NCBI GenBank assembly: GCA_003213955.1
Contig: QCMG01000014.1
Span: 1-37,733 of the forward strand
DNA: 37,733 nt
Direction: 5' to 3'
DNA from: Prochlorococcus sp. AG-418-M08
GTDB lineage: Bacteria; Cyanobacteriota; Cyanobacteriia; PCC-6307; Cyanobiaceae
The first letter of the stretch is position 1. Every line of letters starts with the position of its first letter. Below are positions 1 to 20,950 of the stretch, in pieces. Position numbers and translations under genes: made by a program. The notes beneath the pieces are model-generated. The model saw nothing but the letters and a program-made list of their open reading frames with translations, searched no databases and had not been told where the DNA came from.

Positions 1-25
1 CCACTCAACACTAAATTTAGGTGTC

Positions 26-66
26 TTTATGACACTAGGTCGCAGGTTCGATTCCTGTAGCCCCGA
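26..66 (+). repeat. tRNA-Pro 3' remnant, copy 1
   Basis: The segment matches the anticodon-loop-to-3'-end part of the tRNA-Pro(UGG)-like repeat found at 1194 and 3637. The variable region AGGTC, T-arm GCAGG-TTCGATT-CCTGT and acceptor end GCCCCGA are recognisable. The anticodon loop reads TTTATGA and one base of the following stem is missing. Bases 1-25 contain no D-arm, so this is not an intact tRNA cut by the window edge. Bases 67-188 downstream hold no gene that I can see. Confidence 0.7.
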
Positions 67-188
67 TCAGTTATTGCAGTAGGTTTGGGGTATTGATTAA
101 TCGTCTTAATATAAGATTCGCCCCTCCAGTAGCCCCTCCTGATCTATAGCTTGCTATTACTTGCACCTATTGGGCTCCTTTTGCCCTT

Positions 189-317
189 CTAGTCATATAC
201 TTTCTCCTGGTCTAATATCTCCCTCTTATAACTCTCAGCAAGCTCATCATTATATCTGCACTCTTCAATTATTTTTACTATCTCGGAGATAGCTATAGTT
301 TTTCGATCTTGCATCAT
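189..317 (-). CDS. Small hypothetical protein (42 aa), paralogue of its upstream neighbour
   Basis: This short ORF begins with ATG ATG and encodes an acidic, helical-looking 42-residue protein. It is probably real because residues 12-39 resemble the N-terminal part of the neighbouring 89-aa product. Both carry the pattern E-(I/M)-x-K-x-I-x-E-x-x-Y-x-x-E-L-x-x-x-Y-x-R-E-x-L. It lies 13 nt downstream of that gene on the same strand, so the two are probably co-transcribed. No domain is recognised and the function is unknown. No clear Shine-Dalgarno sequence is visible. Confidence 0.5.
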   Translation of the reverse strand: MMQDRKTIAISEIVKIIEECRYNDELAESYKREILDQEKVYD

Positions 318-330
318 TTAATAGTTTTTT

Positions 331-600
331 TTAAGCAGCATCATATTCATCACGATCTTCAAGCTCTCTCATAAATCTTTTATCTAGTAAGTAGTTATCT
401 ATAAGCTCTGCTGCCATTACTATCTCAGCAGCAGGTTCTTGAAGATCTTTGTCTAATAAGTAATTGTCTATAAGCTCTAGATTGTTATTTTCTTTAATTT
501 GTTTATCGCTGTTTAATAGTTCTCTTATGTAGTTATATACAAGCTCTTGATCGTATCCACTTTCTCTAATTTCTTTCAACATTTCTTCTGGAATTTCCAT
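331..600 (-). CDS. Small acidic repeat protein (89 aa), hypothetical
   Basis: The product is cytoplasmic, acidic and predicted helical, with no membrane segment. It contains three repeats of the form E-L-(I/V)-x-N-Y-(L/I)-x-(D/E)-(K/L), starting at residues 19, 42 and 65, an exact 23-residue period. The second and third repeats share the identical decapeptide ELIDNYLLDK. The ATG at 600 is preferred over an in-frame TTG at 609, because AAGGGA lies about 9 nt before the ATG but directly abuts the TTG. The downstream 42-aa gene is a paralogue. The function is unknown; a helical-repeat binding protein is a guess. Confidence 0.6.
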   Translation of the reverse strand: MEIPEEMLKEIRESGYDQELVYNYIRELLNSDKQIKENNNLELIDNYLLDKDLQEPAAEIVMAAELIDNYLLDKRFMRELEDRDEYDAA

Positions 601-708
601 AATCGTCAATCCCTTAAAAACTTATCTATATCTATAAAAACGTATTTCAAATAAAAATCAAATATTATTTATAGAATTAATTAGAAGAAAAATAATCTTT
701 GATATTTA

Positions 709-1026
709 ATGTTGCGACTTCTTCCGTTACCAATTTTTATTTGCTTTTATCTATTCTCTTGGTGGAGATGTAAAAAAAATATTATCGCTAGTGATAAGCA
801 ACTAAAACCTTGCATTGATTGGGCAAATATAAAAAATTTATCTCTCCCACCAAAACCTTCATTTGTCGAGTTTTATTTTGTTTATGTTTCTTCTTTTTTT
901 AAATTTCCTTTTGGGTTAATTATTCAACAACTACCTTTCGCAAAGAAAGTAAGATATTACGAAAGAGAAATGAAATTAATATTTGATAAATGGAATTTAG
1001 AAAAAATTAAAAAAATAATTAACTAA
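709..1026 (+). CDS. Small hypothetical membrane protein (105 aa)
   Basis: The ORF starts with ATG and encodes a hydrophobic N-terminus (about residues 3-19, ending in SWWRCKK) followed by a basic and aromatic-rich region. A second hydrophobic stretch lies at about residues 52-75. The C-terminus is strongly basic. No conserved domain is recognised. It is divergent from the repeat-protein pair at 189-600 and lies in the same interval between two tRNA-Pro remnants. It could be a spurious A+T-rich ORF, but its length and the lack of a competing ORF favour a gene. The following 1027-1452 holds only the remnant at 1194 and a tandem repeat at 1321. Confidence 0.45.
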   Translation: MLRLLPLPIFICFYLFSWWRCKKNIIASDKQLKPCIDWANIKNLSLPPKPSFVEFYFVYVSSFFKFPFGLIIQQLPFAKKVRYYEREMKLIFDKWNLEKIKKIIN

Positions 1027-1193
1027 ATATCTATCAAATCAAAAGAGCCCCTCAGAGAGCCACTCCCGACTGATATCATGCTATTTCAAACAAAATCAGT
1101 GCTAATTTTTCTGTCTCAAAAATGATTAACTATTAGATATTTTATCAGTAATATCAATAGTTCTTAGAAATCTCTTAAAAACATCTCTAGTAT

Positions 1194-1237
1194 TTTGGGA
1201 GCACTAGGTCGCAGGTTCGAATCCTGTCGCCCCGACT
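1194..1237 (+). repeat. tRNA-Pro(UGG) 3' remnant, copy 2 (best preserved)
   Basis: The copy runs from the anticodon loop TTTGGGA (anticodon TGG) through the 3' anticodon stem GCACT, variable AGGTC, T-arm GCAGG-TTCGAAT-CCTGT and acceptor CGCCCCG with discriminator A. All these parts are unmutated. The 5' half (acceptor, D-arm, 5' anticodon stem) is absent upstream, so it cannot make a tRNA. A T-rich motif ending in TTTATTGC follows about 53 nt downstream and recurs after other copies. Loss of the 5' half with a clean 3' half is typical of tRNA-targeted integration scars. Confidence 0.9.
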
Positions 1238-1320
1238 TTTTCAAAACCAAGTTATGCTGGCGAGTTTACCAAATCACTTTTTTATTGCTGATACTCTCAA
1301 ATTGAGGAAGTGGCACTCGT

Positions 1321-1360
1321 TTGATCTACTTCGATCTACTTCGATCTACTTCGATCTATT
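1321..1360 (+). repeat. Four tandem 10-bp repeats (TCGATCTACT)
   Basis: Four head-to-tail copies of T(C/T)GATCTA(C/T)T fill exactly 40 bp. The two central copies are identical and the outer two differ at single positions. The array lies about 85 nt after remnant copy 2 and 93 nt downstream of the end of the minus-strand OGT-like gene. A weaker version (TTGATCTTCATTGATCTG) follows remnant copy 6 near 6674, suggesting it belongs to the repeated boundary unit. Confidence 0.8.
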
Positions 1361-1452
1361 TTATACTTATAAACCGATATGGATATATAAATAATACTTA
1401 CAGATATTTTTAAATCTAATATGGGTTACATCATTATCAAATGGATTTAGAA

Positions 1453-3336
1453 CTATAAATTCCTGACCAATTTAATATATATATTTTCAAGATTTTCTGT
1501 AAATTCTTTTGTATCAAATAAGGAGGACTTGGTTCTACTTTGTTTTAAACGATATTTCAAATCCTTTAAATATTTGCTGTTGGTTGCAATACTGTATGCC
1601 TTCTCTTCATATTCAACATCATCTTTAACTATAAGTTCTTCCAAGCTTAAGGAAGTCAAAAGACTAGAACAGACTCTTGCCGAAAAACTTTTTCCTTGTT
1701 TAGTTATTATAGGTACTCCTGACCAAAGAGCATCTGAAGCTGTGGTGTGCGCATTATAGTTAAAAGTATCAAGAAAAAGATCAGCACATTTTATTCTTGA
1801 TAAATGATCTTCATTGCTAACTCTGTCCGCAAAAATAATTCTTGAACTTTCTACACCCCTCTTTTCTGATTCTTTTTTTAGATTAATCGCAGAATAATTA
1901 TTAGATTTATATAGCCATAAGACACTATTTTTAATTTTCTTTAATAAGCTCATCCAAATATCAAACTCGTTTGACGTAATTTTATTATTTGCATTGAAAC
2001 AGGCAAAAACAAACGCATTTTCTGGCAACCCAAGCTGAGTTTTCCTAATTTCTTTCTTAGACGTTTTCCTATTAGTATCATTACATTGATAACAATTAGG
2101 CATATGAATCACTTTTTCGCTATAAAATTTTTTGAATTTATCAGGGATAATAACTTTGTCAGCAATTAAATAATCTATACAGTCAGCTCCTGTAGATCCC
2201 GGATACCCCAAGTATGAAATTTGAATAGGAGCAACTCTCAAAGAAAAAATTGAAAGCCTCATATTTTTTGTATATCCCATAAGATCAACTGCAATATCTA
2301 AAGTATCTTGTCGTGCGATGCGAGCTGCATTTTCGTCAGAAAGGTCTGATATATTTCTAAAAACATTTACATTCTTTTTTAATTCATCTGTTAATTCATC
2401 TTCTTTTGAGTTTATTGAATAAATATAAATATCAAATTGTTCTTTATTATGTAACTCGAATAATCCTTTTATGAGATACATCACTGCATGTTTTCGGAAA
2501 TCTGCAGAAAAATAACCTACTCTAATTTTCTTTTTTGGGGTGTATGAAATACTTTGTGAAGCCCTTTTATATTTTCTTTCAAAAAACTGTTTAGCTCTTT
2601 TTAAATGATTACTAGGGTTATCCTCCAAAGGCAAAAGCTCAAAAGGACAAATCTCTTGATCCAAAGTGTCAACTTTATTTAAAGTATCTTGGATATACTT
2701 AGGTTCAGACCAATCACAAGCAAATGATTTACATGTCAAAAGACTTATTTTTAAATGAGCAATTTGGGGCTGTAATTTAATTGCCTTTTTATAGACCTCA
2801 ATTGCATCTAAGTATCTGTTTGTTTTTTGATACAGTCCACCCAAATTTGATAATGCTTTGTAGTTTTTAGTATTTAATTTTATTCCTTTTTCATAGAGCT
2901 CAATAGCCCTAATAAAATTGAATAAATCTTCTTCAAACTTCGCATAATTAAAAATTAGTAACTCTGATTTAGGATTATTATTTATAGCCTCATCAAGTAT
3001 TAACCTTGCTTCTTTTATATCCCTCAATGAAAGATAAGAATTTACCATTCCAAAAAGCAATTTAAGATTATTTTCTTTACTCAGTGATTTTGCCTTAGTA
3101 AGATATTTAATTGCCTCTTTATGATTCTTTTCACTTATTTCAATAAATCCTAAATTGAAAAAAATTTCATAACTTTGATAACCACTTTTTAAAAGCTTTA
3201 AGTATAAATTTTTAGCTTCTTGGGTTTTTTTATTTTTTAAAAGATCTTGAGCATGTTTTTCATCATTAAAGAATTTTAAATATCTGGTATCTTTTAAAAT
3301 CTTTTTTTTAGGTGCACTACCAAAACCCTTCTGCAT
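1453..3336 (-). CDS. TPR-containing O-GlcNAc transferase / SPINDLY-like glycosyltransferase (GT41)
   Basis: This is probably a cytoplasmic glycosyltransferase that adds a sugar from a nucleotide sugar to protein Ser/Thr. Residues about 50-195 are TPR helices (for example NLGGLYQKTNRYLDAIEVYKK). The catalytic GT41 region follows: GYFSADFRKH at 274-283, with the His expected as an active-site residue; QISYLGYPGSTG at 372-383; FNANNKIT at 447-454, whose Lys matches the UDP-binding Lys of OGT; and NAHTTASDALWSG at 528-540. At 627 aa it is a compact but complete bacterial member. The ATG start is clear. It is the only gene between remnants at 1194 and 3481/3637, so it looks like a single-gene cargo. 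Acceptor and sugar donor cannot be read from sequence; GDP-fucose, as in plant SPINDLY, is possible. Confidence 0.9.
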   Translation of the reverse strand: MQKGFGSAPKKKILKDTRYLKFFNDEKHAQDLLKNKKTQEAKNLYLKLLKSGYQSYEIFFNLGFIEISEKNHKEAIKYLTKAKSLSKENNLKLLFGMVNSYLSLRDIKEARLILDEAINNNPKSELLIFNYAKFEEDLFNFIRAIELYEKGIKLNTKNYKALSNLGGLYQKTNRYLDAIEVYKKAIKLQPQIAHLKISLLTCKSFACDWSEPKYIQDTLNKVDTLDQEICPFELLPLEDNPSNHLKRAKQFFERKYKRASQSISYTPKKKIRVGYFSADFRKHAVMYLIKGLFELHNKEQFDIYIYSINSKEDELTDELKKNVNVFRNISDLSDENAARIARQDTLDIAVDLMGYTKNMRLSIFSLRVAPIQISYLGYPGSTGADCIDYLIADKVIIPDKFKKFYSEKVIHMPNCYQCNDTNRKTSKKEIRKTQLGLPENAFVFACFNANNKITSNEFDIWMSLLKKIKNSVLWLYKSNNYSAINLKKESEKRGVESSRIIFADRVSNEDHLSRIKCADLFLDTFNYNAHTTASDALWSGVPIITKQGKSFSARVCSSLLTSLSLEELIVKDDVEYEEKAYSIATNSKYLKDLKYRLKQSRTKSSLFDTKEFTENLENIYIKLVRNL

Positions 3337-3480
3337 TATTTTTATTTATACAATAATCTTTAATTATTAGATGTATTTTCCATTAAGTCGATACCAATCA
3401 AAAGTTTTTTAAAGTAACTTATATATTTTTAAAAATATTAAATTTTTGGATCATATTTTTAGCGATCTCCTTGGCATTAG

Positions 3481-3491
3481 GCACTAGGTCG
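3481..3491 (+). repeat. Truncated tRNA-Pro remnant, copy 3
   Basis: Only GCACTAGGTCG, the anticodon-stem to variable-loop segment, is preserved, and the match ends abruptly. It lies 156 nt before copy 4 in the same orientation. At 11 nt it would be weak alone; its position in the series supports it. The rest of 3337-3894 holds copy 4 and no gene that I can support. Confidence 0.5.
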
Positions 3492-3636
3492 TTAATAGAG
3501 GCTCTTAGCTAATGTACATAGTATATAGTGATATATGCTTTGTGCTAGTTTGAGACTCAATCCCATTAGCTACATTTACCTCTAACCTAATTATAGTAAG
3601 GAATAAATTAAATTTTTCATTTGATATATCGATTGT

Positions 3637-3680
3637 TTTAGGAGCACTAGGTCGCAGGTTCGAGTCCTGTCGCCCCGACT
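3637..3680 (+). repeat. tRNA-Pro 3' remnant, copy 4
   Basis: This copy is nearly identical to copy 2: loop TTTAGGA (one change), stem GCACT, variable AGGTC, T-arm GCAGG-TTCGAGT-CCTGT (one change), acceptor CGCCCCG and discriminator A. It is followed by CTCTAATAAT, which also follows copy 6, and by TTTTATTGC about 50 nt downstream. The 5' tRNA half is missing. Confidence 0.9.
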
Positions 3681-3894
3681 CTAATAATCTAAGTCATAGA
3701 GAAATGTCACAGTCTTTCATTTTTATTGCGAAAAACTAACACAGTAATTGCCGTCAAAATAATTTCAAAAATTAATTAGTAAAGTACTTTTTAACGACAC
3801 CGCAAAAAATAAAACTGCTATTTATGGTTTAATTCCTCATCAATGGCCTCAAGAATAATTGCTATCCTTATTAACAGATGGTAATAAAGTACTA

Positions 3895-4044
3895 ATGAAA
3901 GAACTAGAAGAAAATACGATTGAACAAATTAGAACTCTCCTTAATTATTTGGAGCAAACAGATCTATTAAAAAATAAGGAAATTCTTAGGTGTCTAGATG
4001 TAATAGCTAGGGAGTATGGAGGAGAAGTAGTAGATAAAAATTAA
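3895..4044 (+). CDS. Small conserved-looking protein (49 aa), paralogue of the gene at 7472-7624
   Basis: The product is 49 residues and helical. It aligns with the 50-aa product encoded at 7472-7624: both have a TxxQI core, an L-x-Y-x-(E/Q)-Q-T segment, a K-x-KE motif and a terminal A-R-(E/K)-Y-G-G-(E/K)-V-V. That similarity supports an ATG start at 3895 rather than an in-frame TTG at 3859. The stop codon directly abuts the next gene's ATG (TAA-ATG), suggesting translational coupling. The function is unknown. Confidence 0.65.
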   Translation: MKELEENTIEQIRTLLNYLEQTDLLKNKEILRCLDVIAREYGGEVVDKN

Positions 4045-4236
4045 ATGGCTAATCCAGACCAAAAAACAATATTTCTAGAGCAAGCTTATGACGAACTTAA
4101 ATCAATTTGCTCTAAATTCCAAGACGAATCTGGAGCTACAGATATGGAAGTAAAAACTCTACTAAGAGAACTTGCTAGGGTTTGGGGGGAAGATATTGAT
4201 AACGATAACGATTACGACATAGATTGGGAAGTTTAA
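4045..4236 (+). CDS. Small acidic protein (63 aa), NPDQ family
   Basis: The product begins MANPDQKTIFLEQA and ends in an acidic Asp/Asn tract (DNDNDYDIDWEV). It starts immediately after the stop of the 49-aa gene, so the two form a tight pair. A frameshifted relative with the same NPDQKTI(F/L)(L/I)EQA opening and an (L/I)xxELRxE(L/I)AxxW core lies at 20313-20487. This shows it is a multicopy family. There is no membrane segment and the function is unknown. A run of mixed A and T follows the stop. Confidence 0.7.
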   Translation: MANPDQKTIFLEQAYDELKSICSKFQDESGATDMEVKTLLRELARVWGEDIDNDNDYDIDWEV

Positions 4237-4485
4237 ACTTTTTTGCACAATTAGCTCTTTTCATTACTTTCTCAAAATATTATTTTTTATTGGTAAATCA
4301 GAAATAAAAAAAGAGCAAAAACAAACCTATTTTTGCAAAAAAAGAGATAATTTTTCTAAAAATTTTTTTATGGAAAAATAAAAAATTTATATTATTTGAT
4401 AGAGACAGATCAAGAATTAAAGTTTTTGAACCGTTCGAATATACTTCCAAGCCTTCCCTATCTAATGATCTAATGATGATTTCTT

Positions 4486-4593
4486 ATGGTTGCGTTTAAT
4501 AAGAGTTCAAGTAAACCAATAATAAAAGGTAGCAGAGTAGAGACTATAGAAAATGCGCGAAAAGAATATAAACAGCTTCTTGAAGAAGGTTGA
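4486..4593 (+). CDS. Small hypothetical protein (35 aa), possibly truncated by a stop codon
   Basis: This short basic ORF reads MVAFNKSSSKPIIKG, then a helix-like ENARKEYKQLLEEG, then TGA. The pattern A-R-x-x-x-x-x-L-x-x-x-G is often followed by Trp in small marine-picocyanobacterial proteins. Here TGA sits exactly where TGG would be, and the frame continues RRSNIF before the next stop. It may be intact, or the remnant of a slightly longer gene. The preceding 4237-4485 contains only A+T-rich sequence. Confidence 0.35.
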   Translation: MVAFNKSSSKPIIKGSRVETIENARKEYKQLLEEG

Positions 4594-4622
4594 AGGAGAT
4601 CCAATATTTTTAGGAGTTATTT

Positions 4623-4850
4623 TTAAGGATAAAAGTCCACTTTCCAACGCATTACACAATAATTCAAAGGATTATATCCATTGCAATTCCAGAATTTAAA
4701 TATTTTTATAGCGAAATGGTGGAAAGCAGAATCATTGAAAAATGCCCAGCTAAAATAAATAGCAAATGCAGTTACAACGAACGCAGCATATTGAAGCCAA
4801 TGCTTTCCAGACTTATCAACACCATTTTTATCAAAATTAGTATTACTCAT
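4623..4850 (-). CDS. Small single-TM protein (75 aa), HWLQYAAF family
   Basis: A short polar N-terminus (MSNTNFDKNGVDKSGK) precedes one membrane span at about residues 17-38, starting HWLQYAAF. A Cys-containing tail (NCNGYN) follows. The gene at 20108-20302 encodes a close paralogue with the same N-terminus, span and a DCSGFN tail. Its ATG sits directly after the stop of the upstream hli gene (TAA-ATG), which suggests coupled expression with that chlorophyll-binding protein in the thylakoid membrane. The C-terminal 15 or so residues have no counterpart in the paralogue. The function is unknown. Confidence 0.75.
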   Translation of the reverse strand: MSNTNFDKNGVDKSGKHWLQYAAFVVTAFAIYFSWAFFNDSAFHHFAIKIFKFWNCNGYNPLNYCVMRWKVDFYP

Positions 4851-5105
4851 TTAAAGGATTGGATATGCTATCCATCCAAATAAGGAGTAGTTAATAATGA
4901 CAGCCATGAAGCCTATCATTGCAAGCCTTCCATTTGTTCTTTCAGCAATATACCAATATGTATTTGGCCATTCAAATTTAGAAGTATTGGGTATTTGATC
5001 TTCTGAAACTGGTATCTCTTTAGAAATATTGTCCTGATCAAGATAATAATTACTATCTGGGAAATAGCTTTCGCTTCGAATATTGTCTTCTTTCTTTTCA
5101 ATCAT
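4851..5105 (-). CDS. High light-inducible chlorophyll a/b-binding-like protein (Hli)
   Basis: Hli proteins are single-helix LHC relatives in thylakoids that bind chlorophyll and carotenoid and protect photosystems under excess light. The signature AERTNGRLAMIGFMAVI lies in the last third, followed by LFGWIA at the C-terminus. The N-terminal half is long and acidic. Translation from the ATG at 5105 gives 84 aa. An in-frame ATG at 5189 would add 28 hydrophobic and basic residues unlike Hli proteins, so I reject it. It abuts the single-TM gene downstream. It lies between remnants at 3637 and 5320, so this hli is probably island cargo. Confidence 0.88.
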   Translation of the reverse strand: MIEKKEDNIRSESYFPDSNYYLDQDNISKEIPVSEDQIPNTSKFEWPNTYWYIAERTNGRLAMIGFMAVIINYSLFGWIAYPIL

Positions 5106-5319
5106 TTTTTTTAGGAATTTGAATATTACATGCATTTTAAAAAGTAAAAAGGCTAAATAGGTTAAAAAAAAATTTATTTCATCAATCATTAATTAGATAA
5201 TTATTTTTTATTGCCGTCAAAGCTCTCAAATCTATAATGGTTCAAACTGACAAATCAGGAAATACTTTTCAAAAGGATATTTTTTCTAGACATAGTGCCC
5301 TATGATATTTCTTAAGTGC

Positions 5320-5363
5320 TTTAGTAGCATTGGGTAGCGGGTTAAAATTTTGTCGCCCCGACT
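5320..5363 (+). repeat. tRNA-Pro 3' remnant, copy 5 (degraded)
   Basis: The segment aligns without gaps to copy 4 with about 35 of 44 matches. TGTCGCCCCGACT is perfect, while the T-loop reads TTAAAAT. AGTGC just upstream matches the 5' anticodon stem, so this copy extends slightly further into the tRNA. TTTTTATTGC follows about 50 nt downstream, as after copies 2 and 4. Most changes are toward A or T. No gene is seen in the rest of 5190-5466. Confidence 0.8.
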
Positions 5364-5466
5364 TAATTAATTAATTCATATAAAAAGTTTCCTGACTATC
5401 ATTTTTATTGCTTTTACTTATAAGCACAAAGACGCCAACAAATCACAACAAATATATACAAGTTTT

Positions 5467-5856
5467 TCATTTCTCATAACCAGTTAATTCAGATAGATTC
5501 TTTAAGGTTTTTACCCCAATAATTATTTCTCCATTAATTTCCCAAGAGGGAAACCCCTCTATTTTTTTATCTATACATAACTGTGTCTGACTATTTTTCC
5601 CATCCCTAGCACACTCAACTACATTAAGTTCTTTATAAGCCTCCTTACCAAAAAGCTCACTTTGATCACGGCAATTTGGGCACCAATAGGCTGAATATTT
5701 AACTACCCCTTTCTTTTTAAGGTGCTTTGCAATTGCAATAGATTCATTTGTACTCTCCGAAGTAACTACAATTTCTTTAGGACCTTTTAAATGCCCACCA
5801 TTCACTGCACTAGAAAAAGTAAGACCAATTAATATTGGGAGAAGTAACCGTTTCAT
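5467..5856 (-). CDS. Secreted thioredoxin-fold protein related to the VKOR C-terminal domain
   Basis: The product has an N-terminal signal peptide (about residues 1-20, MKRLLLPILIGLTFSSAVNG) and a thioredoxin-like domain with WCPNC at 58-62. Two further Cys lie at about 82 and 93, and a FPSWEINGE segment carries the conserved cis-Pro region. The order KYSAYWCPNCRDQ, LFGKEA, ECARDG, GFPSWEING and LSELTGY closely matches the Trx domain fused to vitamin K epoxide reductase in cyanobacteria. Here the VKOR membrane domain is absent. A lumenal or periplasmic disulfide role is likely (inference). The ATG start is clear. It sits between remnant copies 5 and 6. Confidence 0.85.
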   Translation of the reverse strand: MKRLLLPILIGLTFSSAVNGGHLKGPKEIVVTSESTNESIAIAKHLKKKGVVKYSAYWCPNCRDQSELFGKEAYKELNVVECARDGKNSQTQLCIDKKIEGFPSWEINGEIIIGVKTLKNLSELTGYEK

Positions 5857-5926
5857 TTATTTACCAAGTAAACACTTAAATAATTTCCTTCTATTATATA
5901 GCTTTTCTCTTTTGGTTATCTAACTA

Positions 5927-6113
5927 TTAGTCTATTAATTCCCCATTGTTTGAAAGTTGATCAATTTCCTTCATTTCAATCTTTTCAACTGAGGTAGATA
6001 CTTTTTCAAAAGTGGCTAACAACCACCTTATCAAGTATTAAAGAAACAGATTAAGTATTAACAGCAGTTGGTAAAGCGATGACAGTTAATAGCGAGAGCT
6101 TTAACCCTATCAT
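5927..6113 (-). pseudogene. Decayed small secreted-protein gene
   Basis: An ATG at 6113 opens a signal-peptide-like sequence, MIGLKLSLLTVIALPTAVN. An in-frame TAA follows, then SVSLILDKVVVSHF, a TGA, and, after a frame change, EKIEMKEIDQ ending in TAA. Pieces in two frames that together resemble one small secreted protein indicate at least two stops and one frameshift. The intact family member is not in this window. It could also be two unrelated micro-ORFs. Confidence 0.5.
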
Positions 6114-6117
6114 TAAA

Positions 6118-6372
6118 CTATTTCATCTGAACTTTAGGTTCATAAACAGCACCATTGCATACTGCAACAGCAAGACTTTCTTTTGCTTCTTTATCCCAAC
6201 CTTTTAAATCAATTTCTTTTTCATTAATCCAACGTACTGTTTTATCAATACAACGATTCCAGTAACCAGCTTTTTTTGAAACTGGTATTAAAGAAATTGC
6301 AATTAAAACTATCGCAGCAGTTGATGTAATTACACAGTATTTGATGATTTTTGGACTTTTATTAGGTGACAT
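6118..6372 (-). CDS. Small membrane-anchored protein (84 aa), hypothetical
   Basis: The sequence starts MSPNKSPKIIKYC, followed by one membrane span at about residues 11-30. The soluble part carries GYWNRCIDKT and a second Cys near the C-terminus (AVCNGAV), possibly a disulfide pair on the far side of the membrane. An in-frame TTG at 6420 would add 16 residues, but the ATG at 6372 directly precedes the basic, membrane-inserting N-terminus. The 85-aa product at 19432 has the same plan (basic N-terminus, TM, then K-Y-x-N-x-C). No known domain. The adjoining 6373-6731 contains remnant copy 6 and no other gene. Confidence 0.7.
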   Translation of the reverse strand: MSPNKSPKIIKYCVITSTAAIVLIAISLIPVSKKAGYWNRCIDKTVRWINEKEIDLKGWDKEAKESLAVAVCNGAVYEPKVQMK

Positions 6373-6536
6373 ATAAAAAGAGAGGGCATACCCGTTAAGT
6401 TTAGATCGACTGTCAATCAAAAAAATTATGTAATTTATATTTCATCTAATAATTCTTTATTTGGACAAATTTGGCAACATCACCTAAGTGTTATCTATCA
6501 CTTGAAAAATATTGTCGCTTTATAGCTGTTAAGTGC

Positions 6537-6580
6537 TATTGGAGCACTAGGAGGCAGGTTCAAATTTTTATGCCCAGACT
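6537..6580 (+). repeat. tRNA-Pro 3' remnant, copy 6 (degraded)
   Basis: GGAGCACTAGG and GGCAGGTTC are preserved, and the 3' end is mutated to ATGCCCAGACT. About 33 of 44 positions match copy 4. The 5' anticodon stem AGTGC is present just upstream, preceded by TATAGCTGTTA, which may be a decayed D-arm. The same CTCTAATAAT as after copy 4 follows, then TTTATTAC at about the usual 50-nt offset. Confidence 0.8.
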
Positions 6581-6731
6581 CTAATAATTCAATATATATA
6601 GGTATCAAAACCTCCCTTCTTTATTACCTATTTGTCTCATTTTGCGTGAGGGTAACTGTAAGTCTAATTCATTTGATCTTCATTGATCTGGGTTTTGCCT
6701 ACTAGGTAGCTAACCAAGAGGAGATTTTTGA

Positions 6732-7454
6732 TTAGTCAAATGTTTTTGAAGAGTTTTCAAGTAATTCATTTAATTCTAAAATTTCTTCTTTAGTAAATTC
6801 GCGATATTTTCCTATTGGTATGTCTAACTTAATATTCATAATTCTCACACGCTTTAATGATTGTACTCTGTATCCTAAGGACTCACACATTCTCCTAATC
6901 TGGCGGTTAAGTCCTTGAGTAAGTATGATTTTAAATTTTTTTGGGCCCAATTTCTTTACGAAGCAATTCTTAGTTATTGTGTCTAATATTTCAACTCCAT
7001 TACTCATTGTTTGAATAAAGTCTCTATTAATCGAACGATTAACGCTTACAATATATTCTTTTTCATGATTGTTTCTTGCTCTGAGTATTTTATTTACAAT
7101 ATCCCCATCGTTAGTTAAAAAAATTAATCCTTCACTGGACTTATCCAATCTTCCAATAGGAAAGATTCTTTTATGGTATTTAATGTAATCTATGATATTG
7201 TCAGGTTCTACTTTCCTATCTGTTGTGCAAACAATTCCAACAGGTTTATTGAAAGCCAAATATATGTTCTTTTGTTTTGTTGATTCTCCTATTCTTTGAC
7301 CTTCAACTTCCACTTTATCTCCTTCCTCTACCTTGGTACCAATCTTTGGAGTTCTTCCATTAACAGTTACTTTCCCTTCTTCAATTAGTCTGTCTGCTGC
7401 TCTTCTAGAACAGTAACCCACCTCACTTAAATATTTATTTATTCTAGTAGCCAT
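6732..7454 (-). CDS. rluF: 23S rRNA pseudouridine synthase, RluF/RsuA family
   Basis: The enzyme isomerises a uridine in 23S rRNA to pseudouridine (U2604 in E. coli RluF). An S4 RNA-binding domain occupies residues 1-60 (INKYLSEVGYCSRRAADRLI). The synthase domain has FPIGRLDKSSEGLIFLTNDG at 98-117, with catalytic Asp104, then RARNNHEKEY and the motif GLNRQIRRMCESLGY. These motifs follow the RluF order closely and the 240-aa length is normal. The ATG at 7454 is preceded by AAAAGGGTAA. A 50-aa gene ends 17 nt upstream on the same strand. It lies between remnants 6 and 7, so this copy may be cargo. Confidence 0.9.
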   Translation of the reverse strand: MATRINKYLSEVGYCSRRAADRLIEEGKVTVNGRTPKIGTKVEEGDKVEVEGQRIGESTKQKNIYLAFNKPVGIVCTTDRKVEPDNIIDYIKYHKRIFPIGRLDKSSEGLIFLTNDGDIVNKILRARNNHEKEYIVSVNRSINRDFIQTMSNGVEILDTITKNCFVKKLGPKKFKIILTQGLNRQIRRMCESLGYRVQSLKRVRIMNIKLDIPIGKYREFTKEEILELNELLENSSKTFD

Positions 7455-7471
7455 TTTTCAAATTTACCCTT

Positions 7472-7624
7472 TTATCTATTTACTACTTTTCCTCCATACT
7501 TTCTAGCTTCTTTATATAATAGAAAAATCATTTCTTTATATTTAAGTTTCTCTGTTTGCTGCATATATTCTAAAACATCACATATTTGATCCTGTGTATC
7601 TTCATTAAATTCTGAAACTGCCAT
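7472..7624 (-). CDS. Small protein (50 aa), paralogue of the gene at 3895-4044
   Basis: A complete ATG-to-TAA ORF encodes a soluble helical protein. It aligns over its whole length with the 49-aa product at 3895. Shared positions include DxxQI, L-x-Y-x-Q-Q-T-E, LKYKE and the terminal ARKYGGKVV. It lies immediately upstream of rluF and probably shares its transcript, with rluF's ribosome-binding site in the 17-nt gap. The function is unknown. Paralogy across two island modules is the main evidence that it is real. Confidence 0.65.
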   Translation of the reverse strand: MAVSEFNEDTQDQICDVLEYMQQTEKLKYKEMIFLLYKEARKYGGKVVNR

Positions 7625-7731
7625 TTAAATTAGGAGTAATAGCCCCATCAAGTTTAGATCAAGCATATAGATTGCTAAATGAAAAATGTATGTTTGCATA
7701 ACTAAAATATTTTTTGATCGATCTATTTGAT

Positions 7732-7774
7732 GCCTTAGCACAAAGACGAAGATTCAAATCCTATCTCCTCGACT
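7732..7774 (+). repeat. tRNA-Pro 3' remnant, copy 7 (strongly degraded)
   Basis: Over the last 38 bases about 29 positions match copy 2 without gaps. AGCAC, TTC, AATCCT and CTCGACT are retained. Most differences are G-to-A or C-to-T, as expected of neutral decay in an A+T-biased genome. A T-rich CTTTTTATTTTC block follows at the usual offset of about 50 nt. No other gene is seen in 7625-7880. Confidence 0.7.
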
Positions 7775-7880
7775 CTTATTAATTATAGTTTTAGAGGATT
7801 TTCCTCGCCTGTCTTTTTATTTTCTAAAATTTAACAGAAAGTAAAATGGACAAAATTGACTCAATATTAAAGAAAAATAA

Positions 7881-8294
7881 TTAATTAAAAGGTGAAGTAT
7901 TATTGGTTGGAGCTATTAGTAAGATTTCGAAGACAATTCCAGTTAAAGCTATAGGTAATACCCAAATACCAATAAATCTATGATCAAAAAATCTTAAATG
8001 ATCTTTACCTTTAAAAACATTTTTTAAAGAAGTGTATAGAGTTTCTGGTTGTTTGTAAGACGGACCTGTTTTTGATGGTGAATAAGGCTTAATAAAAGCG
8101 GATGCTGCATAAAACTTTGAAATTTTATTTATCAAAAAAATAGGTAAAACCCAAATAGAAACAAATCTTGCCCCTAGCCACTGTCTTGCATTAGGGAGGG
8201 CATACTCTTTGATCGATTTATTTTCAGGAATTCCTGATTCCAAATCCTTATAAATATCTTCTAAAGTCTTTTCTTTGCTTGAGTTACTTGTCAT
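7881..8294 (-). CDS. Two-span membrane protein with internal duplication (137 aa)
   Basis: A polar N-terminal 35 residues precede a hydrophobic segment beginning ARFVSIWVLPIFL. A second segment, HRFIGIWVLPIAL, follows about 65 residues later. The shared R-F-(V/I)-x-I-W-V-L-P-I pattern shows a duplicated membrane unit. I do not recognise the family. Its place among very small PSII-like proteins (8772-9975) suggests a thylakoid or photosynthetic association, which is inference. ATG start, no overlap with neighbours. It is the first gene after remnant copy 7. Confidence 0.7.
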   Translation of the reverse strand: MTSNSSKEKTLEDIYKDLESGIPENKSIKEYALPNARQWLGARFVSIWVLPIFLINKISKFYAASAFIKPYSPSKTGPSYKQPETLYTSLKNVFKGKDHLRFFDHRFIGIWVLPIALTGIVFEILLIAPTNNTSPFN

Positions 8295-8582
8295 TTAAAT
8301 TTCTAATTGGTGTATATTTTATGAATTTAAAACTTTAATAAAAATATTCCTAACTACTAAAATAACTAAAAAGTAGTTAAGAATATTTTCTTTGGCTAGG
8401 TTCATAAAGACGGAATTTTCCGTTGCAGATTTGCCAAATATCTACAACTACTTTATAGATAAAAAACCAATTTATTAAAAGTAAATAATATACAAATAAA
8501 TGAATAAAATTTAATTTTAAAAGTTATTTATTAATACATTTTTTTTAAATATAATTTTTATTTCATTTGAAATTAATTTAAA

Positions 8583-8692
8583 CCTCATTTTCTAAGATTG
8601 CGAAAAAGAAAATGAGGTAAAAGAGAGGTTCTCATTACAAACCGAAGGTATCAAAGCTTACGGCTAGTAGATTTCTCTAGTTTCTACTAATA
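8583..8692. ncRNA. Candidate structured RNA or regulatory region in a 477-bp gap
   Basis: The gap 8295-8771 has no ORF I can support. It contains a perfect 11-bp inverted repeat CCTCATTTTCT / AGAAAATGAGG (8583-8593 and 8607-8617), a short GGTT/AACC pair nearby, and a 7-bp repeat TAGTAGA / TCTACTA (8665-8671 and 8683-8689). Three stems within 110 bp in locally less A+T-rich sequence could be a small RNA or a processed 3' region. No T-run directly follows the big stem on either strand, so it is not a simple terminator. The strand is undetermined. Confidence 0.35.
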
Positions 8693-8754
8693 TATTTATA
8701 CCTTGACTTACTTAATTTAGGAAGATTTATTTTATACAAATAAGTGTTTTATAT

Positions 8755-8790
8755 TATATTGATTATCTTTATTAAAAGCTAATCAATATA
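8755..8790 (-). terminator. Perfect 11-bp inverted repeat at the end of the small membrane-gene cluster
   Basis: TATATTGATTA (8755-8765) and TAATCAATATA (8780-8790) form a perfect stem with a 14-nt loop. It overlaps the last codons of the 31-aa minus-strand gene, where a transcript from 9396 would be expected to end. The tail beyond the stem in the minus direction is A+T-rich but not a clean T-run, so the terminator role is tentative. Confidence 0.4.
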
Positions 8791-8867
8791 TTTACAAGAC
8801 TAATTGAAAGCTGAAAAAAAGCATAAAGGGAAACTGCCAAAAATAAAAATTGTTCTAAAGGAATCAT
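8772..8867 (-). CDS. Single-TM microprotein (31 aa), photosystem-subunit-like
   Basis: A complete ATG-to-TAA ORF encodes MIPLEQFLFLAVSLYAFFQL and then a second hydrophobic half, about one membrane span with almost no soluble part. This is the size and plan of low-molecular-mass photosystem or cytochrome b6f subunits, though I cannot assign it to a known one. It lies 35 nt downstream of the PsbY-like gene on the same strand, so it is probably the last gene of that operon. No strong ribosome-binding site is visible. Confidence 0.5.
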   Translation of the reverse strand: MIPLEQFLFLAVSLYAFFQLSISLVNILISF

Positions 8868-8902
8868 AATAAATAAGAATTGTTTGAAATTTGTTTTGTA
8901 AA

Positions 8903-9088
8903 TTAATTTTTTGTAGTGAAGATGTTCTCTAGTATCAAATTTCCACTTAACCGAGTATTTTTTGTATTCTTTTTATTAGGTTGGTTAGTGGAGAATGAAT
9001 TAAAAGCCCCCCATCTTTTAAGAAAAAACAGAGTATAGAAAAAAGCAATAATAAAAGGAGCTCCTACAACTAGATATCTGATATCCAT
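8903..9088 (-). CDS. PsbY-like small membrane protein (61 aa)
   Basis: The N-terminus MDIRYLVVGAPFIIAFFYTL is one membrane span. It parallels that of the adjacent 97-aa protein ([20 protein letters not shown]) and the MD-x-R-x-L-x-V-x-x-P pattern typical of cyanobacterial PsbY. The remaining 30 or so residues are polar, rich in Asn, Lys and Thr. AGGA lies about 9 nt before the ATG. It starts 14 nt after the stop of the 97-aa gene, so the two are almost certainly co-transcribed. The PsbY relation is based on pattern and context only. Confidence 0.65.
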   Translation of the reverse strand: MDIRYLVVGAPFIIAFFYTLFFLKRWGAFNSFSTNQPNKKNTKNTRLSGNLILENIFTTKN

Positions 9089-9102
9089 TCAAATTTTCCT
9101 AA

Positions 9103-9396
9103 TTAATAAGATTTAAACTGCATTGCCAAAATTGCTCCAAGGAAGAAAACAGTTGGAATCCCTAAGGCATTTACAGCTGCAGTTCTAACAGTAAATACGG
9201 GGTAACCTTCCTCAGGTCTATTTGTATTTATAATCGATGAATCTTCCCATACTTGATAGTTTTTAAAAGGAGCTACACCCTTTTTAGGTAATCCGAAAGG
9301 GGTTAGTCTGAATACATCCCATTTTCCTAACCAAAACACAGTAAATATCCATGCGATAACAATTGGTGCAATTACAAGTAAAACTCTAAAGTCCAT
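9103..9396 (-). CDS. PsbY/PsbF-like fusion protein; cytochrome b559 beta-like domain without the haem histidine
   Basis: Residues 1-28 form a PsbY-like membrane span and residues 29-62 a polar linker. Residues 65-94, YPVFTV through [12 protein letters not shown], closely match PsbF, the cytochrome b559 beta subunit of photosystem II. In PsbF the haem-ligand His lies in the RWLAVHxLAxP segment. Here it reads [11 protein letters not shown], with Asn76 at the ligand position and Thr replacing the usual Trp. Haem binding in the normal way is therefore unlikely. The protein probably sits in the thylakoid membrane and might bind or replace parts of PSII (inference). ATG start; first gene of a three-gene minus-strand operon, divergent from 9607. 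Confidence 0.8.
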
Positions 9397-9606
9397 TTTT
9401 ATAAATAGTTAATTTGTTATTCATTTTGCCTTTATTTATAAAAATTAAAATTGAATCTTTAACTTTTATTTAATTAAAAACTCCTATTAACAGTAAGTTT
9501 GATCATTAGTCACCATAAGGAATGATTTATTGATTTGGTTAAAGTATATTTTTTAAACTTTGATATTTAAATTTAATGTAGATTTGAATTAATCTGAAAA
9601 ATTTTT

Positions 9607-9975
9607 ATGGAGACATTTAGATTCCTACTTTTTGGTATTGCAGGTTTTAGTTTAATCTTTTGGGTTGCTGTAATAGCTTTGTGGCATACCTATATGTTCC
9701 CAACTTTCTTTAATGAAGACAAAGTTTTTAAGTCTGTTATTACTAAGGAAAATTCTCTTAAATCAGAACCAATTCTTGGTAATTTAGTTAACAGCAATAA
9801 CTTCATAAGTAGGCAAAAATATTCAATGAAAAATCTTGTTATAGCTGACTTTTCATCTATTCAAGATAATTTTAAACTGAATAAACTTTACACTACTGTA
9901 ATGATTGGAGTTTCATTTGCCACTTTTATTTTTCTGACCTACGGATTAAGCAGTTCTATTACAACAGTAGGTTAA
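9607..9975 (+). CDS. Two-span membrane protein (122 aa), hypothetical
   Basis: A hydrophobic span lies at about residues 5-30 (FRFLLFGIAGFSLIFWVAVI), followed by a polar central region of about 65 residues. A second span lies near the C-terminus (TTVMIGVSFATFIFLTYGL). I do not recognise a family. The gene is divergent from the PsbY/PsbF-like operon across a 210-bp intergenic region. Its stop abuts the ATG of a 28-aa membrane ORF (TAA-ATG). Context suggests a thylakoid or photosystem-associated role; no motif confirms it. Confidence 0.7.
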   Translation: METFRFLLFGIAGFSLIFWVAVIALWHTYMFPTFFNEDKVFKSVITKENSLKSEPILGNLVNSNNFISRQKYSMKNLVIADFSSIQDNFKLNKLYTTVMIGVSFATFIFLTYGLSSSITTVG

Positions 9976-10062
9976 ATGGGATCAATATACACTTTAGTTT
10001 TTATAACTTCTTTCCTTTATTTAATCATTAATTCATTTAATGATTTCAAATTAAAAAAATAA
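9976..10062 (+). CDS. Single-TM microprotein (28 aa)
   Basis: ATG directly follows the stop of the 122-aa gene. The product MGSIYTLVFITSFLYLIINS plus a short basic tail (FKLKK) is one membrane span, comparable in size to the smallest photosystem subunits. Abutting stop and start suggest translational coupling. An A-run and then a T-run follow, where this transcript meets the convergent 41-aa gene. Confidence 0.5.
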   Translation: MGSIYTLVFITSFLYLIINSFNDFKLKK

Positions 10063-10068
10063 AAAAAA

Positions 10069-10194
10069 CTAATTTTTTTTACCATCTAGTAAGAATTTTC
10101 TTCTTATAAAAAAGAATACTAATGTAGTTATTATCATAATAGGCGGATGAAATGATATCGAATTCAAATAGTCGTAATAACTAAAGTTTTCCAA
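10069..10194 (-). CDS. Single-TM microprotein (41 aa), TTG start
   Basis: The ORF reads MENFSYYDYLNSISFHPPIM, then a hydrophobic IITTLVFFFI and a basic tail RRKFLLDGKK. The only usable start is TTG at 10194. The layout (amphipathic head, one span, positive-inside tail) is that of a real membrane microprotein, but no Shine-Dalgarno sequence is seen. It converges with the 28-aa gene, the two stops being 6 nt apart. Confidence 0.4.
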   Translation of the reverse strand: MENFSYYDYLNSISFHPPIMIITTLVFFFIRRKFLLDGKKN

Positions 10195-10644
10195 TGACTT
10201 GACCGATAATTTCCTAATGACTATATCTCAGGTTCTTATATTTAATTGATTTAAATAAATCAAATCAATGTATAAAATGAAAGAAAGAACTGTTTCTAAG
10301 AAATTCTTTTTCTAATTCAGATCAAATGTTGCTTTATATTCCCTAACAAGCTACGCAGAAAGAAGTACAACAATATTTATATTCTCAAAACCTTGTGGGA
10401 CACAATATCTATTCAGTGCTTTTAGAGAGAAATATAGTAAGTTCGAATCCACTCCCCCTTATCAGCAATGAAAAATTGATGGTAAAGCTTTTTTAAGATT
10501 AATATTTATAAAATCCAACATTTTTTTTTATCTCTCTATAAATTTAAATTATAATTTAAAGAGAATTTTTGTTTTAAAACGTATTTACTCTCAAAATTAT
10601 TACCCTTAATTTTTTCGCCCTTAGGGATAGTTTTAATACTCTTA
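10195..10644. other. Intergenic stretch with an inverted repeat and the last tRNA remnant
   Basis: There is no convincing gene here. TTGATTTA and TAAATCAA (10246-10253 and 10256-10263) form an 8-bp inverted repeat with a 2-nt centre, operator-like or fortuitous in A+T-rich DNA. Remnant copy 8 lies at 10415. From 10555 the sequence is open in the frame of the following DUF218 gene. Confidence 0.4.
10415..10461 (+). repeat. tRNA-Pro remnant, copy 8 (most degraded)
   Basis: The segment keeps tRNA spacing exactly: AGTGC (5' anticodon stem), a 7-nt loop TTTTAGA, 5 + 5 nt, GTAAG, a perfect T-loop TTCGAAT, CCACT, then CCCCC. About 31 of 47 positions match the tRNA-Pro sequence, but the T-stem no longer pairs. 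Alone it would be marginal; collinearity with seven other copies in the same orientation makes it credible. It could instead derive from another tRNA. Confidence 0.45.
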
Positions 10645-11337
10645 TTGATTTTCTTTAATAAAAGAAAAGTAAAATTTATTTATTCAGCATTTGTTTTATT
10701 AATTTTTTTTAGTAATGGTATTGTGGCTAGTAGTTTATGGAAATTATTAGAGTCTCCTTTGAAGAGATTAGATTATTCTGAGGTAAGTTATTCTGATGGA
10801 ATAGTTGTTTTAAGTAATGGAAGACATTTGCCTCCAGGTAATTCAAAAATAATAGAATGGGGCGATCCAGATAGGTTTCTTTCAGGAATAGATCTTTATA
10901 AAGCAAATAAATCAAAGAGATTGATATTTACGGGTGGATTAAATCCTTTGAATCCAGTTTTACCTCTAGAAGGTGATATTTACATTAATGAAGCTATTAC
11001 AATGGGAATACCCAAGAAAGATTTATTTACTACAAATGCAGTTACTAATACTCTTCAGGAAGCAAAGGCAGTAAAAAAAATTCTTAATAATGAAACAAGC
11101 TCAAGTAAAAAAGAGGTAATCTTAGTTACAAGTGCTTTCCATATGAAAAGGGCTAAAAAAGTTTTTGAGAAAGAAGGGATAGTAGTTCAACCATTTCCTG
11201 TTGATTTTAAAAGTAATAAAAAACTTTCCTCTACATTAAGGAATCCCTTAAATTGGTTGCCTAGTTCTTCATCTTTAAATTCAAACTCTCTTGCCATTAG
11301 AGAATTTATTGGGAGGATTATATATAGAGCATGGTAA
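10645..11337 (+). CDS. YdcF/SanA-like DUF218 membrane-associated protein
   Basis: DUF218 proteins (YdcF, SanA, ElyC) are membrane-anchored and linked to cell-envelope metabolism. Visible motifs are DGIVVLSNGRH, DRFLSGIDLYK, RLIFTGG, TNTLQEAKAV and LVTSAFHMKRA, in family order. The formal start is TTG at 10645. The same frame is open back to 10555 and encodes SKLLPLIFSPLGIVLILLLI, the hydrophobic N-terminus usual in this family, but with no ATG, GTG or TTG. Either initiation is at an unusual codon (for example ATT) or the start has mutated. The gene lies just beyond the last tRNA remnant and may mark the island boundary. Confidence 0.82.
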   Translation: MIFFNKRKVKFIYSAFVLLIFFSNGIVASSLWKLLESPLKRLDYSEVSYSDGIVVLSNGRHLPPGNSKIIEWGDPDRFLSGIDLYKANKSKRLIFTGGLNPLNPVLPLEGDIYINEAITMGIPKKDLFTTNAVTNTLQEAKAVKKILNNETSSSKKEVILVTSAFHMKRAKKVFEKEGIVVQPFPVDFKSNKKLSSTLRNPLNWLPSSSSLNSNSLAIREFIGRIIYRAW

Positions 11338-11623
11338 TAGCTAATTAACTTAACTCGTTCCTATTAATTATTTGGCGATGATTTGCTTACCTTTAAGTTT
11401 CATGCAAAATATAATTCAGACTTAGAGGTAAAGACTTTAAAATTTATTAATTTAAATGTACTTGTATTAATGATAAAGAATGGATTTTTTTTAATTGGAT
11501 TCTTCTAAAATCTAAAATACATATTTATAAAAAATGTAAACACCTTAACAAAAATATAGAACATAATTAAGCTTGGTATTATGTTATCGAATATCAAATT
11601 GAACTGAAAAATTAACTTTTAGG

Positions 11624-13777: not shown

Positions 13778-14151
13778 TTTGGTGATGCATTCCAAAAAAA
13801 TTTTCCATTATTGCGACTTAAATTCTCTGAGTATTCATGCATTAACCTTGAACCTCTTAAACTTTTGAATGCTACCTTTTGGGCTTAACGCATTAAGATA
13901 GATTTTTGACGATCTTAAATTCTGCCTCCTCAAAAAAAGAGGCATAACTTTAATTTAAGAATGTCTTTGATCTGCTTCAGCGCTTTTAAAAGCTGTTTAT
14001 TCATTTAAAGTTCTTTCATTCTTTAAGGCAAAAAACCGGTAAAAGAGTCTATATTTATTGTCTAGTGAAAGCTAATTAAAAATATTCCCCCAAAATTTAT
14101 TCCATTAAAAATAAGAGAAAATAATACAAACTATTTTGAAGGGAATTATTT
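13778..14151. other. Convergent intergenic region with a hairpin
   Basis: No gene is seen. It separates the + strand glycosyltransferase from the minus-strand HlpA-like gene. Besides the hairpin at 13923 it holds CAGCGCTTTTAAAAGCTG near 13979, an imperfect palindrome. Confidence 0.4.
13923..13944. terminator. Hairpin between convergent genes, probable terminator
   Basis: TGCCTC (13923-13928) and GAGGCA (13939-13944) form a 6-bp G+C-containing stem with a 10-nt A-rich loop, in otherwise A+T-rich DNA. It lies between two convergent genes. T-rich sequence follows weakly on the + strand (TAACTTTAATTT), so direction is uncertain. Confidence 0.45.
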
Positions 14152-16780: not shown

Positions 16781-16908
16781 TTTAAAATGGGTACAAATAG
16801 TTCAAAAATTGAAAAGTCATTTAGAGTTTTAGGATGAATTAAATAAATTTTTTCTTAGTCTTACTAATTTCTATTTTTCTTGCGTAATGGAGTAAACATT
16901 TGCTTCAT

Positions 16909-18399: not shown

Positions 18400-18611
18400 A
18401 ATGAATTATTGAATTACTGCTATTATGGCTTGATTAAATGAATATTAATATTGATGATAGTTATTGTTAAAAGTTAAAATCTTTTTCTAGGTATTAAATT
18501 TTAACCTCTGCTTCAACTATAACCATGGTTCGACTTTAATATATTTACTAATTTTGTTACAAATCAGGAACCAAAGAATAAAAATTTATTTATCAATAAA
18601 TTTTAATTAAT

Positions 18612-20302: not shown

Positions 20303-20312
20303 TAAAGTTGAA

Positions 20313-20929: not shown

Positions 20930-20950
20930 AGATTAACTAAATAATATTTC

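Follow-up and report, generated by a model that had tools for sequence, protein, structure and literature searches.

Remnants of tRNA-Pro(UGG) in the window

The stretch of DNA considered here (hereafter, the window) is the entire contig C14, 37,733 bases long, of the draft genome of Prochlorococcus sp. AG-418-M08 (1,664,652 bases in 29 contigs), and the system in question is an array of partial copies of the gene for tRNA-Pro(UGG) with cargo genes lying between them (genomes, contigs and loci are labelled G, C and L, respectively). A scan by ungapped match to a 49-base core, which extends from the anticodon stem to the 3' end of the tRNA plus two bases, yields seven full-length copies of the 3' part of this gene, all on the + strand, within positions 20-10463. 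These putative attachment (att) sites are located at 20..68, 1189..1237, 3632..3680, 5315..5363, 6532..6580, 7726..7774 and 10415..10463, and are identical to the core at 37, 47, 45, 39, 38, 32 and 31 of the 49 positions, respectively, as compared to the best value of 27 and the median of 23 in 200 Markov-shuffled 12-kb windows. The distal copies are more decayed, with one exception, namely, the first copy is weaker than the second one. The nhmmer scores of the seven copies are, in order, 36.0, 58.8, 51.6, 32.1, 30.0, 12.4 and 7.3 bits; the best score over 100 shuffled windows is 7.4 bits, so that the copy at 10415 is not set apart by the hidden Markov model alone. We accept it on the strength of its ungapped score and of an orthologous unit boundary: when the segments of the window were compared across 15 relatives, with at most the best 14 matches per segment, the cassette at 7774-10415 was found to be bounded by a copy in seven relatives (G022, G019, G002, G005, G009, G004 and G016) among the matches listed, the right-hand copy lying 128-203 bp past the conserved DNA, compared to about 137 bp in the window.

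Four genes identified between these copies are encoded on the - strand. Unit 2 carries a TPR protein with a glycosyltransferase family 41 domain (1453..3336), and unit 4 a thioredoxin-like protein (5467..5856) the score of which, 23.3 bits, is just below the Pfam cut-off of 23.5. Further along the array are an RluF-type pseudouridine synthase (6732..7454) and the long form of cytochrome b559 beta (9103..9396), the latter within a cassette that also occurs in relatives.

The sequence-only reading of the window counted eight same-direction remnants. Seven of these stand, and the eighth, at 3481, is rejected as an independent remnant: the match is 11-12 nt long and, at 5.0 bits, falls inside the shuffled range. 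It is better read as a motif, GGCACTAGGTCG (3480..3491, +), that recurs near the right end of units. This motif is present, with at least nine of 12 positions matching, 161-167 bp before 30 of 140 att copies, as compared to two of 280 control windows. The window instance is exact and lies some 10 bp closer than elsewhere, about 152 bp before the copy at 3632, which the motif scan itself credited with only eight of 12 positions.

The intact gene and the arrays of relatives

When considering the possibility that the array grew by serial integration at the 3' end of one tRNA gene, as the sequence-only reading proposed, a simple question has to be asked: where is the intact gene? No complete tRNA is present within the window. 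Contig C17 of the same genome carries four further copies (at 495, 2332, 4480 and 13933), each with the top score of 63.0 bits, and, in a search of the whole draft, strong matches to the 3'-half copy were confined to C14 and C17. The draft contains 33 tRNA genes above the cut-off (150 of the 181 candidates were scored), all typed by ARAGORN; among these 33, tRNA-Pro(GGG) is present, and neither tRNA-Pro(UGG) nor tRNA-Lys was found. Since repeats break assemblies, the UGG gene of this draft probably resides in an assembly gap. The relatives present a clearer picture. ARAGORN identifies tRNA-Pro(UGG) in all 15; ten of them were chosen because the intact gene had already been seen there, and it is present also in the five that were not preselected (G002, G022, G023, G026 and G031). 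(In a first survey, the intact gene was seen in 11 of 20 loci, with four of the other nine known from search matches alone.) Hence, the intact gene expected beside the region is in place, 5' of the remnants, in these 15 relatives, and in this draft it was not found.

A 24-base core pattern (with at most two mismatches) is present in 234 of 266 genomes from the genus, at as many as 17 places per genome, and the reversed pattern is absent among the matches listed; a family-wide pattern search (match in 205 of 300 genomes) mixes intact genes with remnants and was not used. Upstream of the intact tRNA, no copy above 24 bits is detectable in the relatives within the roughly 1.7 to 11 kb of DNA examined. 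Downstream of it, 14 arrays of the 15 relatives comprise 125 copies, 118 of these on the strand of the tRNA. The remaining seven opposite-strand remnants all belong to G006 (C2:22699-46517) and might represent a part of the array that is inverted, or else result from the assembly. Among plus-strand copies above 24 bits, the copy score drops with the distance from the tRNA in 12 of the 14 arrays, in nine with p below 0.05, and the mean rho over the 14 arrays, -0.67, was not reached in any of 5000 permutations. The gradient is not universal, which speaks against serial integration: two of the 14 arrays show none (G008, +0.03; G020, +0.08), and in three more p exceeds 0.05.

The lengths and contents of the units between the copies vary among the relatives, in agreement with the varied occupancy that was anticipated from the window, and in G026 the intact tRNA is followed by 30 kb of DNA with zero remnants. 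Among the matches listed, the cytochrome b559 cassette is inside the array in seven relatives and past the RluF-type gene in G001, G006, G023 and G031; in 10 of the 15 relatives, the DNA of the RluF-type gene comes after the final remnant that scores above 24 bits; and units of G002, G008, G012 and G020 that have other boundaries include DNA of a phosphate-related unit of C17 (see below). Taken together, the strand bias, the decay and the varying content fit repeated integration at one tRNA 3' end, and the origin of the array by serial integration at the 3' end of tRNA-Pro(UGG) is therefore supported.

The copies could, alternatively, stem from duplication of the ordinary kind, or from homologous recombination, in the tRNA-Pro region, in which case the remnants would be mere tracts for the shuffling of cargo. 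The occurrence of units common to relatives at different positions would be in line with such an origin, and near-identical 46-bp copies would favour homologous exchange. Duplication, however, is hard to reconcile with the 60 bases that precede each of 110 copies: inspected by eye, these contain the tRNA 5' half only at the intact genes. At later copies in G006, G009 and G016, ARAGORN likewise predicted tRNA-Pro genes, 72 bases in length, which we count as remnants because the preceding bases differ from the conserved tRNA 5' half. With the evidence discussed in the next two sections, we consider this alternative improbable. Another possibility, to which we assign very little weight, is that the tRNA 3' copies and their hairpins are not scars at all and have been kept as functional elements, for example, as terminators that insulate the cassettes. 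By eye, many copies are indeed followed by a terminator-like hairpin with a T-run, and cassettes lie in between; yet the copies decay with distance from the tRNA, and some downstream classes, also by eye, have no such hairpin.

Matched words at the ends of the units

Reading outward from the copies, tandem words with a period of about 11 bases are seen, which differ from unit to unit, and a unit often has the same word near both of its ends. The left end of each unit was aligned to its right end for 124 units from 14 relatives and this genome, the set consisting of plus-strand units at least 300 bases long that are bounded by remnants above 24 bits spanning at least 31 of 46 positions. The sum of the matched-end scores is 1696, as compared to a mean of 1139 (standard deviation 20) and a maximum of 1219 in 10,000 random pairings; when the right ends were shuffled within genomes only, the mean was 1202 and the maximum 1323. 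A score of at least 16 is reached by 43 of the 124 matched pairs versus 1.2% of the mismatched pairs, and for 35 of the 124 left ends, the best-scoring right end is the true partner. The match goes along with the state of the att copies: 29 of 50 units score at least 16 when both copies reach at least 61 bits, 10 of 27 at 50-61 bits, and four of 47 below 50 bits. The positions of the words cluster as well, on the left near +30, +52 or +74 from att and on the right near -109 or -147. As a pattern in the DNA, then, the units display what would be expected of matched arm-type sites flanking a core.

All three units of C17 match, with scores of 21 (TGAGCGAG), 21 (GTGGTCAAAT) and 17 (GGGGTAGCT). 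The word GGGGTAGCT flanks the phosphate-related unit of 9.5 kb, which carries pstS, phoB-like, phoR-like and ArsJ-associated GAPDH genes. In the unit with TGAGCGAG, the largest open reading frame encodes a protein with a T5orf172/MUG113 domain (L020:924-2084, -).

In the window itself, the clearest case is unit 3, where both ends carry a single copy of ATTGCCGTCAAA (3747..3758 and 5210..5221, both +), with a score of 12, rank 4. Unit 1 has a left-end word pair, GCCCCTCC (120..139, +), and a right-end pair, AGAGCCCCTC / AGAGCCACTCC (1044..1067, +), close to the right end of L158; the weak AGCCCCTC at both of its ends, a word found also beside a recombinase in L158, scores 8 (rank 55 of 124) and is not distinguished from mismatched pairs. 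The left-end words of unit 4, GCCAACAAAT / CACAACAAAT (5434..5454, +), include the word of the recombinase L200, and no matching right end was found in this unit.

Several observations speak against this reading of the ends. Only 43 of the 124 units reach a score of 16; among the 50 units in which both att copies are well kept, 21 fail to do so. The ends of window units 2 (1191-3634) and 4 (5316-6533) do not match. Some well-kept units elsewhere are unmatched as well, among them the long, composite-looking G020 7276-22185 and G001 20361-25108, both of which carry a long recombinase. Unmatched ends would be less of a surprise under the duplication or homologous recombination alternative, under which, on the other hand, matched unit-specific ends are not expected.

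Two other repeats and a functional RNA in the window may be recorded here. In the open reading frame at 331-609, a 31-base stretch is present in three direct copies at 69-base spacing (379-547); just past a left end, at 1320-1359, there is a short tandem repeat of the 10-base unit TTCGATCTAC; and the cyanobacterial functional RNA Yfr19 is located at 28451-28532 (-), as a Rfam match of 90.1 bits.

Complete elements and the long recombinase

Five units of 8.5-9.7 kb at tRNA-Pro (in G008, G029, G077, G087 and G123) hold two recombinases each and represent complete elements. Their common genes encode a compact tyrosine recombinase (191-212 amino acids), a primase/AAA-type protein and three small conserved proteins, and at the right end of all five there is a long protein of 416-475 amino acids. 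The words of about 11 bp near their two ends, mostly present as tandem pairs, match in all five, with scores of 14-20. In G008, G029, G077 and G087, the recombinase-bearing unit is the first one, between the intact tRNA and a copy. The presence of five full recombinase-bearing elements between copies at the same site is a further argument against mere duplication of the tRNA-Pro region. In G029, the compact recombinase matches PF00589 (E 1.7e-22) and the large protein contains PriCT_2, AAA_25 and Prim-Pol domains, whereas the matches of the small proteins are weak for an excisionase (E 0.005) and very weak for a terminase small subunit (E 0.009).

The long protein shows no above-cut-off Pfam match in the three members tested and has a weak PHROG integrase match (E 8.5e-4), with R, RH, GH and Y being invariant in six aligned sequences. 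A Foldseek search with its structural model retrieved Cre recombinases as the best PDB matches. The long protein is homologous to tyrosine recombinases and divergent from them, and its role as such may be presumed. On the other side, none of the full-model Foldseek matches reaches E 0.001 (best 1.3e-3, template-modelling (TM) score 0.36, predicted TM score of the model 0.50), and the isolated N-terminal model retrieved no arm-binding domain among the 50 fold-search matches listed. In addition, a PDB sequence search gave five weak matches, with no recombinase among them. The N-terminus is predicted to consist of a helix, three strands and another helix. In most loci read, the right-end word lies between the start codon of the long recombinase and att. 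A genome scan gave six loci of this recombinase family, all from Prochlorococcus, and none of the 33 pattern matches in a scan of viral contigs was confirmed.

The same tRNA is also associated with another layout, in which the intact tRNA-Pro has the long recombinase on its 5' side (L173:3758 and upstream; L165, L168, L193 and L194), with words such as TAGTGACAAAA or TGTACGCAA between the two. In L173, the far end retains a broken 5' portion of tRNA-Pro, as if the element had brought a new promoter and tRNA.

Words and the N-terminus of the recombinase

Which protein, if any, would read the words? The compact recombinase was set aside as the reader: its versions in G029 and G069 are very similar and yet accompany different words, namely, TGAGCGAG at both ends of the G029 element and GGGTAGCT in G069, at the left end only, as the element is cut by the contig end. 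For the long recombinase, the analysis included 41 of 87 proteins, those with a clear right-end word; the set comprises non-redundant loci with a tandem of run at least 7 other than the GCAGTCT repeat as sole match, excludes L238, L249, L250 and L272, and thereby leaves the inverted-word groups (TCCGTGG, CACACAAATGTGTG) outside. Sixty of the recombinase loci were picked from among the matches listed.

In these 41 proteins, word similarity correlates more strongly with the identity of the N-terminus (rho 0.40) than with that of the catalytic half (0.27), and the partial correlation of word and N-terminus given the catalytic half is 0.32 (0 of 2000 permutations). Individual cases point in the same direction: L164 and L182 have the same word, their similarity being 81% over the N-terminus and 45% over the catalytic half, whereas L222, L225 and L224, which are 97-98% alike in the catalytic half and 53-61% in the N-terminus, have three different words. 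In an exploratory comparison of six regions, made without the two truncated N-termini (L247 and L273), predicted strand 1 is the strongest within groups (0.74, partial 0.72; 131 pairs) and the helix at 81-91 is the strongest over all pairs (0.377). Predicted strand 2, the candidate specificity determinant, was rejected as the weakest of the six regions (partial 0.146 over all pairs and 0.336 within groups). A post hoc observation concerns the seven recombinases whose words are of the GG..CT type: the amino acid that follows WQI in predicted strand 1 corresponds one to one to the word. I goes with GAGCT, T with TAGCT and R with GCGCT (two proteins each), and V with GATCT (one protein).

Several points stand on the other side. 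The catalytic half keeps a small partial correlation of 0.12 (23 of 2000 permutations); the permutations ignore phylogeny; and since the right-end word adjoins the N-terminal coding region, linkage could give part of the correlation. Similar N-termini can go with different words (L109 and L155a, 86%; L256 and L229, 88%), and taking the nearest neighbour by N-terminus instead of by catalytic half does not improve the prediction of the word (11 better, 7 worse, 7 ties, p = 0.30). A recognition code that links words to recombinases is plausible and not proven, and the words are best described as candidate arm-type sites.

Could the words serve a different function altogether, as iterons for replication, as signals for packaging or as operators bound by a regulator that the element encodes? 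Tandem repetition is a feature of iterons and packaging sites, too, and the primase/AAA protein of the G029 element, together with its terminase-like small protein, would suit such functions. Yet the words are found at characteristic distances from att, at both ends, even in units that have no room for those genes (for instance, G009 2458-3109, 651 bp), and they track the long recombinase. We regard this possibility as unlikely, albeit less so than an origin by duplication.

Movement in trans and the proposed mechanism

How would units that lack a recombinase move? A search with the long-recombinase profile found none on C14 or C17, where other recombinase kinds were not searched and the assembly is broken. 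The sole full-length homologue of the long recombinase found in this genome is at C11:7642-9176, beside tRNA-Thr(GGT), with the word TTAGTGCA, a location that suggests an element at that site; partial matches are present on C1 and C7. Several words of the array also occur beside recombinases elsewhere, namely, TGAGCGAG (L154), GGGGTAGCT (L109 and L167), AGCCCCTC (L158) and TGCCGTCAAA (L225), while GTGGTCAAAT is carried by none of the 41 long recombinases. Because no tyrosine recombinase was found on the contig and the words recur beside recombinases elsewhere, the window units most likely represent non-autonomous cargo cassettes that would be moved in trans by a matching incoming element.

The following scenario can be envisaged. 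An incoming element would integrate at the tRNA-Pro(UGG) gene and bring along its own tRNA 3' half, often with a terminator-like hairpin. With each new insertion, the older copies would be displaced away from the tRNA and, once displaced, would decay, so that the distance from the tRNA would approximate age; the gradient itself is observed, and the process behind it is our interpretation. Complete elements would supply the compact and the long recombinase, the primase/AAA protein and the small, weakly excisionase-like protein. The N-terminal domain of the long recombinase might read the words, with its other domains acting on the tRNA core that the units have in common, as happens in integration of the lambda type, and the recombinase-less cassettes of the window could move in trans once a matching element enters the cell. 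Under this scenario, the words seem to be a barcode at the unit ends that is read by the recombinase which moves the units. Considered jointly, repeated site-specific integration at the 3' half of tRNA-Pro(UGG), words acting as arm sites and transport of the window cassettes in trans appear to us a probable explanation of the array. A broader generalization, namely, that Prochlorococcus harbours many parallel integration systems that share one tRNA target and are kept apart by a fast-changing code of N-terminal domains and ~11-bp words, by which recombinase-less cassettes travel as well, strikes us as evenly poised between holding and failing.

Should this scenario be correct, it would offer a possible mechanism for the reshuffling of island genes in a highly abundant photosynthetic organism: the cassettes would be ordered roughly by age behind the tRNA, and the barcodes would tell which recombinase moves which cassette. 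Short words would then suffice to predict the mobility of nutrient cargo, such as the phosphate genes and the ArsJ-associated GAPDH of C17, and a natural series of recombinases whose specificity code can be read would be open to study.

Comparison with known systems

Among the closest known systems are the tycheposons, which Hackl and colleagues reportedly described in 2023 as mobile elements of Prochlorococcus islands that reside at tRNA genes, encode a divergent tyrosine recombinase and carry cargo or satellite genes.

In the passages of PMC10872708 that deal with them, tycheposons have a tRNA at the border and a tyrosine recombinase, use seven target tRNA genes and span 4-200 kb. The window units, at 1.2-2.7 kb, are below this quoted range, unlike the C17 phosphate unit with its 9.5 kb. 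C14 and C17 yielded no tyrosine recombinase, whereas one is present in same-site elements of relatives. A tycheposon would be expected to have an intact tRNA at one border and a partial copy at the other; the window units lie between two partial copies, and the recombinase-bearing first units of G008, G029, G077 and G087 between the intact tRNA and a copy. The same passages mention neither unit-specific matched words nor a link to the N-terminus. A preprint (PMC10187409) reports another integrase family of picocyanobacteria, which is associated with tRNA-Phe and tRNA-Cys. Given that the repeats consist of tRNA 3' halves, an integron reading was set aside.

Similar arrangements are known from other bacteria and other loci. 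According to the relevant portions of PMC3146451, the ssrA islands of Dehalococcoides are tandem islands downstream of one essential RNA gene, with short 3'-end repeats as borders and with an integration module in many, which is not stated for all; unlike the array described here, they employ the serine recombinases DsiA and DsiB, a tmRNA target and a 20-bp repeat, and those portions describe no matched end words. The fGI-2 region of Methylophilaceae, as covered by the pertinent section of PMC10872708, is an additive variable island with repeats of the last 20 bp of tRNA-Lys in varying number, for which that section describes no end words or recombinase pairing. The tRNA-Met island of MIT9313 likewise contains copies of its tRNA, but involves a different tRNA and degraded transposases, and the authors, in the part of PMC2784084 concerned, propose a possible phage attachment site. 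The organization of lambda-type attP, as outlined in an excerpt of PMC8138268, resembles the candidate arrangement here in having a core with nearby accessory arm sites and a recombinase with an extra N-terminal domain. Here, in contrast, many words are combined with one core site at one locus, and units lacking a recombinase carry words too.

No description of such arrays with matched end words specific to each unit was found in the open literature, as far as it was covered, and no paper was found there that names both Prochlorococcus and PRE1, a repeat that the sequence-only reading had mentioned. Arrays of islands at tRNA 3' ends are already known in outline, and the matched, unit-specific words appear to go beyond those arrays as they are presented in the accessible portions of that literature.

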